Shown: positions 55,008 through 57,482 of the stretch, piece after piece | Position numbering within the stretch: position 1 is the first letter of the stretch | How the letters are laid out: the number at the start of each line of letters is the position of its first letter | Origin: an uncultured Opitutia bacterium | GTDB lineage: Bacteria > Verrucomicrobiota > Verrucomicrobiia > Opitutales > UBA953 | Direction: 5' to 3' | NCBI GenBank assembly: GCA_903840355.1 | Contig: CAIMFJ010000008.1 | Location: 124,001-188,000 of the forward strand | DNA: 64,000 bases | Notes under the pieces: model-generated | What the model saw: only the letters and a program-made list of their open reading frames with translations | Databases searched by the model: none | Told to the model about the DNA's origin: nothing | Position numbers and translations under genes: made by a program

Positions 55008-57482
55008 ATGCGTCTGAGTGTATTCGTGTTAGGGATTTGCCTTGGTCTAATCAATTCCAGCCTGGCGGCCAGCGAGCCTCAGGAATGGTCCGGCATCTAC
55101 CCTCAACTCGCTACCTTCAACAACGAAGGCGAATGTGGCACGGGGGCCGTCGTCCCGTGGGCTGACCGACTCTGGGTGGTTTCGTATGGACCACACCTCC
55201 CTTACGGCTCGAGCGATAAACTTTACGAAATCACTCCCGACCTCCAACAAATCGTTCATCCTGAAAGCGTCGGCGGCACGCCCGCCAATCGACTGATTCA
55301 CCGCGAGTCGCAACAACTCCTGATTGGACCTTACGTGATCGATGCCCAACGGCACGTGCGCGTGATTGCTCCTAAATTAATGCCCGGACGTCTAACGGGG
55401 ACAGCCCGTCACCTGACCGATCCCGCCCACAAAGTTTATTATGCCACGATGGAAGACGGGCTCTACGAAGTCGATGTCAACACCCTCGAAGTCACCGGCT
55501 TGATTAAAGAAATTAAAAATAATCCCAAACCAGGCCAAACCAACGAAGTGCATCCCGCCACGATTAAGTCGACGCTTCCTGGCTACCACGGCAAGGGCCT
55601 TTATTCTGGGCAAGGGCGCTTAATCATCGCCAACAATGGCGAAGACACGCCGCTCGCCCAAACCAACCCCGACATAGCCAGTGGAGCCTTGGGCGAATGG
55701 CAAGGCACGGGCAACTGGAAGCTTATCCGTCGCAACCAATTCACCGAAGTCACGGGCCCTGGTGGCATCGAAGGCAACCTCCACCCAGAACAAGACCCCG
55801 TCTGGACGATTGGATGGGACTACCGTTCGCTCATCCTTATGGTCATGGAAAACGGTCAGTGGACCAGCTACCGTCTGCCCAAAGCCAGCCACACTTACGA
55901 TGGGGCCCACGGCTGGAACACCGAATGGCCGCGTATTCGTAATATTGATACCGGCACGGACTACCTGATGACGATGCACGGGATGTTCTGGAAATTCCCG
56001 GCAACGTTTTCGGCTAAAAACTCGGCGGGCATCGCACCGCGTTCGACCTACTTAAAAATCATCGGCGACTTCGCTCGCTGGCAAAACCGCCTCGTCTTCG
56101 GGTGCGATGATGCCGCCAAATCCGAGTTCCTCAACAAGCGCCCGCTCAAAGAACACCAAGCGGCGCCGGGCCAATCGCAGTCGAACCTCTGGTTCACCTC
56201 GCTCGATACGCCCGACCGACTGGGCCCCGCACTCGGCCGGGGTAGCGTGTGGGTTGATGAAGCGGTACCAGCTGGGCAGCCTTCCGATGCCTTTCTGCTC
56301 AATGGCTTTGACCGTCGGGCACTTTATCTGGCCCACGATCGTACGGCTCCTTCAACCTTTAATCTCGAAGTCGACGTTGAAGGTCACGGGCAATGGACCG
56401 CGTGGAAAGCCGTGCAAATCGAACGTGACCAAGCGGGTACTTGGCTCGAATTACCCAGCAGCCTGCATGGTGCTTGGATTCGAGTCATTTCCCAACGCTC
56501 CCAACAAACAGCCTCGGCAACTTTCCAATACAGCAACCTCGATCATCGCGGCACTTCGCCCTCGGAGATTTTTGCTGGGCTTTCTCGGGCCAATGACCCC
56601 AACTCCCAAGGTGCCTTTGTGCTCACACGCGGCGGGAATCTTCGCACCCTCGCTGTTTTAAGCAGTCAGATTCATCAAGGTGAGACCACGCAAGGCAACC
56701 TCTATGAACTCAATGCACAGATGGAACTAGTGCCGATCAAAGATCCTAAGATTCGCGAAATCTACACCAAAAATAATCCCATCCCTCAAGGCGTCTTGAG
56801 CCTCGATGAGGCCTCTGTGATTTACGAGGAAGGTAAAACGCACTGGCGCTTACCGCGCTCGAATGAGCCAGGCTTCGATGCCTTGCTCGCGAAAAATACG
56901 CTACGCAAAGCCCGCGAAGCCGTAACGGAACGCGACCTCTTTCAAGCGCACGGAACTCTCTACGAGCTGACCGCACTTAATGCGGGTGGTGCGATTCGGA
57001 TGCGCCCCATCGCCTCCAGTCCCTTTGCCATCCATGACTTCTGTTCTTACCGCGGGTTACTCGTGCTCACGGGTATCAACCCTGAAAGCACCACTCCCAA
57101 CCATCACATCATTCGTTCCGCCGATGGCGCCGCGAGTGTTTGGGTGGGAGCTATTGACGACCTTTGGCAACTCGGCAAACCACGCGGTCACGGTGGGCCT
57201 TGGTTGAAGACGCAAGTCACTAAACAAAATCCCTCGGATCCCTACCTCTTCACTGGTTACGACCAAAAGACGCTCGTGTTAGAGAATCATGGTACCGCTG
57301 TCGCGGAGGTCACAGTAGAACTCGATGCCGCAGGCAACGGACATTTTGCCGCTTACCAAACCTTCACGGTCGCGCCGGGTGCTAAAGTCACCCACCACTT
57401 CCCCGATTGGCTCAACGCCTATTGGCTGCGCACGGTTAGTTCCACGGATGGCATTTTAAGTGCGCAACTGACCTACGAATAA
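55008..57482 (+). CDS. Large secreted protein of unknown function with an internal repeat
   Basis: I do not recognise this 824-residue protein by family. A signal sequence ends near SSLAASEP. The first ~390 residues carry repeated short strands (GRLIIANNGEDTPLA, DYRSLILMVMENGQWTSY) that suggest a beta-propeller-like fold. Residues about 393-510 and 709-824 are two copies of one ~115-residue module: both pair a PSD(A/P)(F/Y)L... segment with GFD/GYD, an (E/A)GHG/GNGH turn and an (A/N)-W-(I/L)R ending. No catalytic motif is visible. It should be periplasmic or extracellular. Confidence 0.7.
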   Translation: MRLSVFVLGICLGLINSSLAASEPQEWSGIYPQLATFNNEGECGTGAVVPWADRLWVVSYGPHLPYGSSDKLYEITPDLQQIVHPESVGGTPANRLIHRESQQLLIGPYVIDAQRHVRVIAPKLMPGRLTGTARHLTDPAHKVYYATMEDGLYEVDVNTLEVTGLIKEIKNNPKPGQTNEVHPATIKSTLPGYHGKGLYSGQGRLIIANNGEDTPLAQTNPDIASGALGEWQGTGNWKLIRRNQFTEVTGPGGIEGNLHPEQDPVWTIGWDYRSLILMVMENGQWTSYRLPKASHTYDGAHGWNTEWPRIRNIDTGTDYLMTMHGMFWKFPATFSAKNSAGIAPRSTYLKIIGDFARWQNRLVFGCDDAAKSEFLNKRPLKEHQAAPGQSQSNLWFTSLDTPDRLGPALGRGSVWVDEAVPAGQPSDAFLLNGFDRRALYLAHDRTAPSTFNLEVDVEGHGQWTAWKAVQIERDQAGTWLELPSSLHGAWIRVISQRSQQTASATFQYSNLDHRGTSPSEIFAGLSRANDPNSQGAFVLTRGGNLRTLAVLSSQIHQGETTQGNLYELNAQMELVPIKDPKIREIYTKNNPIPQGVLSLDEASVIYEEGKTHWRLPRSNEPGFDALLAKNTLRKAREAVTERDLFQAHGTLYELTALNAGGAIRMRPIASSPFAIHDFCSYRGLLVLTGINPESTTPNHHIIRSADGAASVWVGAIDDLWQLGKPRGHGGPWLKTQVTKQNPSDPYLFTGYDQKTLVLENHGTAVAEVTVELDAAGNGHFAAYQTFTVAPGAKVTHHFPDWLNAYWLRTVSSTDGILSAQLTYE

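Follow-up and report, generated by a model that had tools for sequence, protein, structure and literature searches.

The 824-residue protein encoded in the window, the whole stretch of 64,000 nucleotides analysed here, contains a real internal duplication: a unit of predicted propeller blades plus a beta-sandwich module is present twice, with the second copy shortened. The family to which it belongs is undescribed and carries no name yet. It is possible, with a confidence that stays somewhat short of even, that these proteins constitute a new carbohydrate-active enzyme family across Verrucomicrobiota, Planctomycetota, Bacteroidota, and Actinobacteria. Such a family would derive from an intracellular sugar enzyme with a single propeller and a single module, which became an exported protein once it had undergone one old duplication; the catalytic propeller would have been retained in copy 1, and copy 2 would have lost about half its blades and retained the more ancestral module. 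The gene is single copy in its 2.27 Mb genome and lies 45 bases downstream of a comEC-type gene (Competence, E 4e-54) and 110 bases upstream of a lumazine synthase gene (ribH-type, E 5.6e-36); a Pfam scan of the window places no sugar genes beside it. The protein had been described as secreted, and its hydrophobic N-terminus (maximal 11-residue hydrophobicity mean of 3.03, predicted helix at residues 2-18) agrees with this. The parts of the protein are compiled in Table 1.

Table 1. Coordinates of the gene and of the parts of its product in the window
Feature	Residues	Position	Strand	Basis or remark
Whole coding sequence		55008..57482	+	824 aa, exported two-unit protein, one frame
Probable signal peptide	1-20	55008..55067	+	Hydrophobic N-terminus; cut site by eye
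Unit 1, predicted seven-bladed propeller	27-389	55086..56174	+	Predicted model, VIA Z, conservation; carries conserved His/Arg/Lys/Glu
Module 1, predicted beta-sandwich	391-509	56178..56534	+	Shuffle test, model, hhalign
Unit 2 blades, about 4 predicted blade-like groups, shortened copy	516-707	56553..57128	+	hhalign, model
Module 2, predicted C2-like beta-sandwich	708-824	57129..57479	+	hhalign, fold search
Duplicated segment, copy 1	267-509	55806..56534	+	hhalign E 2.3e-33
Duplicated segment, copy 2	596-824	56793..57479	+	hhalign E 2.3e-33

The preliminary description reported two segments of about 115 residues that align with each other. Their local alignment scores 139, compared with a mean of 29.4 (s.d. 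5.5) for shuffled sequences, and none of 500 shuffles scored as high. The motifs quoted for them are present in both copies (PSDAFLLNGFD and PSDPYLFTGYD, a G-H-G or G-N-G-H turn, and W490-I-R or W806-L-R). Profile self-comparison had been named as the test able to refute the likeness; with profiles built from 60 relatives, hhalign matches residues 391-509 to 708-824 over 117 columns (99.9%, E 2.9e-35). Shuffles and profiles together rule out a chance likeness of the two modules. The repeat is moreover longer than noted, the copied segment of about 230-240 residues being twice the length first seen, with 225 aligned positions (Table 1), 55 of which are identical in the window protein. Even without the modules, the blade regions still match (96.2%, E 2.2e-9). 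As the two long segments match each other, each module was duplicated together with the blades preceding it.

An AlphaFold2 model of the protein, calculated with 60 sequences, reaches a pLDDT of 92.9 and a pTM of 0.92. Its strand lists place seven blades of unit 1 within residues 27-420, the last one shared with the start of module 1, and by strand order these are seven four-stranded blades, so that the propeller proposed for the first part of the protein is recovered as a predicted seven-bladed ring. For unit 1, VIA-align yields Z-scores as high as 18.4 (rmsd 3.6, with 278 positions aligned within residues 28-407). WD40 proteins and streptogramin B lyases are tied among these rows, which makes unit 1 a propeller of no telling kind. 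Unit 2 alone (residues 516-824) is predicted with a pLDDT of 95.4 and a pTM of 0.90. Ahead of its module it comprises about 190 residues in about four blade-like strand groups, where unit 1 has seven blades in about 360 residues, and according to the strand lists of the predicted model it does not form a complete propeller ring. In a fold search with unit 2, the best rows cover approximately residues 724-824; since the module took up the rows, this search hardly probes the initial 90 residues of the unit. The proposed layout of a propeller plus a module twice over is therefore retained for unit 1, but not for the blades of unit 2. A propeller-plus-module unit was indeed copied, but its second copy is shorter and no longer carries several of the conserved residues.

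The module is, in the predicted structure, a C2-like beta-sandwich with XepA (Z 9.0, rmsd 2.1, 93 aligned) and YomS (Z 8.9, 92 aligned) as nearest folds; the next row has a Z of 7.3, and CBM6 and CBM32 appear with Z of about 6. That no known family came to mind for the protein holds at the level of sequence, where no family model exceeds its cut-off, though the fold of the module is recognisable. Nothing above cut-off in Pfam, NCBIfam, PHROGs, or the PDB chains covers the 824-residue protein, and hmmsearch with the 60-sequence profile finds none of 177635 distinct PDB sequences at E up to 10. There is no sequence match to PL24, PL25, FoRham1, or GH145 in this PDB set, which may not hold each family; passages of one paper name PDB entries for PL24 and PL25 (PMC8377490). 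Chains of PL24, PL25, PL42-type, and GH145 are also absent among the best 50 VIA rows for unit 1, which does not exclude them. The C-terminal phospholipase C domain PLipase_C_C (PF05506) matches the window protein with 17.3 bits (E 0.0097), under the curated cut-off of 24.4, and is matched at E up to 0.01 by six of 60 relatives (best 2.9e-5). These weak matches agree with a likeness between XepA and the C2 domain of phospholipase C drawn in passages of PMC6834076. A literature search, mostly short of full text, together with passages of PMC8377490, PMC12915356, and PMC6834076, brought up no earlier description recognisable as this family. A phage or plasmid origin was considered and rejected: no phage record matches, and the one plasmid record, from Spirosoma oryzicola, is annotated as a hypothetical protein.

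At least 583 related stretches from several phyla are present in one genome collection. The gene is found in 22 of the 25 searched genomes of its genus (its own included, G000-G024) and in one of 13 genomes from other families of the order; in samples of 286 genomes from the class and 387 from the phylum, 75 and 73 genomes, respectively, have a profile match. In Bacteroidia it is rare (5 of 345 genomes), which fits transfer. The gut copy from Phocaeicola coprophilus (L100) has an in-frame stop in the matched stretch and may be broken or misassembled. Longer family forms with extra regions (L191-L195) measure 1158-1325 aa in the fetched stretches, with open frames up to 1500 aa, and two family copies adjoin or lie a few kilobases apart on four contigs (G258:C2, G235:C1, G327:C7, and G398:C46). 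Next to the two-unit form stand one-unit relatives, represented by 19 fetched proteins of about 460 aa with one propeller and one module, which share a mean identity of 37% with unit 1; their last blades partly match both units (e.g. residues 289-342 of the L162 protein). These relatives seemingly have no export signal. The 11 with a start motif found show no hydrophobic N-terminal segment (maximum 1.13), and the remaining eight were judged by eye from their first residues, compared with an N-terminal hydrophobicity of at least 2.0 in 66 of 80 two-unit proteins.

Conservation is concentrated in propeller 1, where 149 of 363 positions (41%) show an identity of 95% or more among 60 relatives, compared with 16% in module 1, 17% in the unit 2 blades, and 18% in module 2. 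Propeller residues common to the two-unit and one-unit forms include E42, Y60, R95, H98, R128, H135, E149, H194, K196, D271, R289, K292, H295, H301, E306, R309, R311, D354, and D367; in the module, W415, S426, E454, D456, W490, and R492 are among those shared. Unit 2 retains these six module residues as well as D271, R289, R311, and D354, and has P, L, and L at the counterparts of H295, H301, and E306. H324 is retained in unit 2 as H648 and is absent from the set common with the one-unit forms. Since unit 2 additionally shows its own set of conserved charged residues (R633, R636, E637, E641, and R642), it is not a mere remnant.

The gene context in relatives points to sugars, most clearly in Bacteroidota. 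In six of 13 Bacteroidota loci (L082, L093, L171-L174) susD lies directly upstream on the same strand, preceded by susC. Individual loci add two GH29 fucosidases, a sulfatase, two SASA esterases, and a GDSL esterase (L102), GH2, GH43, DUF5703, and a beta-helix protein (L175), a sulfatase beside the gene (L173), or GH29 after it (L082). At L101 the gene lies between GH3 and an FAD oxidoreductase, and at L172 two genes before GH88, an enzyme that often acts on lyase products and is seen near the gene in this one locus only. Among the 108 nearest neighbours in 58 loci outside the window's genus there are 6 sulfatases, 5 AraC regulators, 3 GH29, 2 GH43, and 2 SusD; the 112 genes further out contain 2 sulfatases and 1 SusD, with AraC, GH29, and GH43 outside the best 25 families and so present at most once each (one GH29 does occur, in L102). 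Sugar-related genes are thus weakly enriched beside the gene in these loci. Outside Bacteroidota, neither a conserved operon nor a constant gene partner was found among the loci examined. At the one-unit loci, LacI regulators account for 9 of 55 scanned neighbours (17 loci), several of them divergent. A PF12831-type FAD-dependent oxidoreductase flanks eight loci from several phyla (L053, L061, L069, L092, L098, L101, L105, and L107), in some directly adjoining the gene, and the pathway of the propeller protein may include an oxidation step. In relatives of the window's genus, an 865-aa protein without Pfam match is encoded downstream of the gene (L028:13484-16084, minus strand), with similar proteins in eight loci. 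The host genome itself (G000) holds 21 sulfatase genes and no GH29 match, suggesting that the organism feeds on sulfated glycans that are not capped by fucose; fucose chemistry in the host organism, considered on account of GH29 near the gene in some relatives, was rejected for this reason.

A conserved propeller in an exported, sugar-linked protein favours an enzyme acting through propeller 1, and we give about even chances to a putative glycan-degrading activity of this kind, exported and of an undescribed family. The propeller face with E42, R95, H98, R128, H135, H194, K196, H295, H301, E306, and R309 would make up a pocket for an acidic sugar chain (uronic or sulfated), which would be bound there and cleaved through either hydrolysis or the beta-elimination known from propeller lyases. 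The two C2-like modules, together with unit 2, might give the substrate site its shape or enlarge it, or else serve to hold the glycan or a surface. Several observations argue for an enzyme: the His/Arg/Glu set recurs in one-unit relatives of only 37% identity to unit 1, with H295, H301, and E306 lost in unit 2; propeller 1 by far exceeds the remainder of the protein in conservation; and SusC-SusD, GH29, sulfatases, GH88, GH2, GH43, GH3, and esterases occur near the gene in relatives. It is weakened by the lack of a sequence match to a solved enzyme and by fold rows that single out no enzyme, as well as by the weak context outside Bacteroidota, the absence of sugar genes beside the gene in the window, and the host genome without GH29.

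The position behind SusC-SusD is typical of SusE/F. A binding protein therefore has to be weighed, namely a counterpart of SusE/SusF at the surface or in the periplasm that has no catalytic activity and uses its propeller and sandwich modules to pass glycan to an importer. The six loci with the gene directly after susD, the lipoprotein-like starts of some relatives (L098, L102, L107; by eye), and the CBM6 and CBM32 rows of the module would suit such a role. We nevertheless consider it less likely than an enzyme, as the one-unit relatives lack an export signal and as charged and His residues conserved over so many organisms would be unusual in a binder. A small one-unit gene without export signal beside LacI is more readily explained as coding for an enzyme than for a surface binder.

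The history of the duplication is reflected in a tree of 107 modules (121 columns), which is unrooted and has many weak inner forks. All 44 first modules fall on one side of a branch with support of 100/99, all 44 second modules on one side of another (99/97), and the 19 one-unit modules in between. The separate grouping of module 1 and module 2 indicates one old duplication, and a single event in a one-unit ancestor, predating the spread over phyla, would be the simplest reading of these sequences. Mean identities between modules amount to 44% for one-unit modules and module 2, 35% for one-unit modules and module 1, and 31% for modules 1 and 2. One-unit proteins thus have blades resembling unit 1 and a module resembling module 2, as expected if they had arisen from an older two-unit form through loss of the middle; this reversed order is rather improbable, since their modules fall between both groups and not inside module 2, within the limits of the tree given above.

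Least probable, and in our view quite unlikely, is that the C2-like modules bind a lipid, a membrane, or the envelope surface and that the substrate of the protein is a lipid or a polymer of the envelope instead of food glycans: XepA and YomS, described as C2-like in passages of PMC6834076, and the weak PF05506 matches would suit this, but the PF05506 score is below cut-off and the neighbours are sugar genes wherever gene context is informative.

If the protein is an enzyme, it would close a gap in our picture of how acidic or sulfated glycans are opened by bacteria of freshwater, soil, and gut, and would be a clear case of an enzyme duplicate that was dismantled in part as both copies came to be exported. 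Irrespective of this, the family is widespread and has no relative by sequence in Pfam, NCBIfam, or the PDB, and its small one-unit members make it directly testable by crystallography and assays.

Among known systems, XepA, YomS, and the C-terminal domain of phospholipase C share the fold of the module at 8-10% identity but have no propeller. The streptogramin B lyase Vgb shares the seven-bladed propeller (Z 18.1, rmsd 3.8, 270 aligned with unit 1) at 11% identity and has no module; as it is tied with unrelated WD40 propellers, the likeness is one of fold only. The periplasmic double-propeller sensors BT4663 and BT3049, found among the Foldseek and VIA rows, likewise combine propellers with a beta-sandwich, whereas the window protein lacks a kinase or regulator part and its unit 2 is an incomplete propeller. 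With PL24, PL25, FoRham1, and GH145 it has both a seven-bladed propeller, as predicted, and a glycan context in common, and it differs from them by the additional partial second unit and the two sandwich modules. In FoRham1 and its relatives, catalysis is attributed to His, Arg, and Tyr in passages of PMC8377490, which list His85, His105, Tyr150, and Arg166 in the FoRham1 cleft; at the sequence level, residues of the same kinds are conserved in the family of the window protein.
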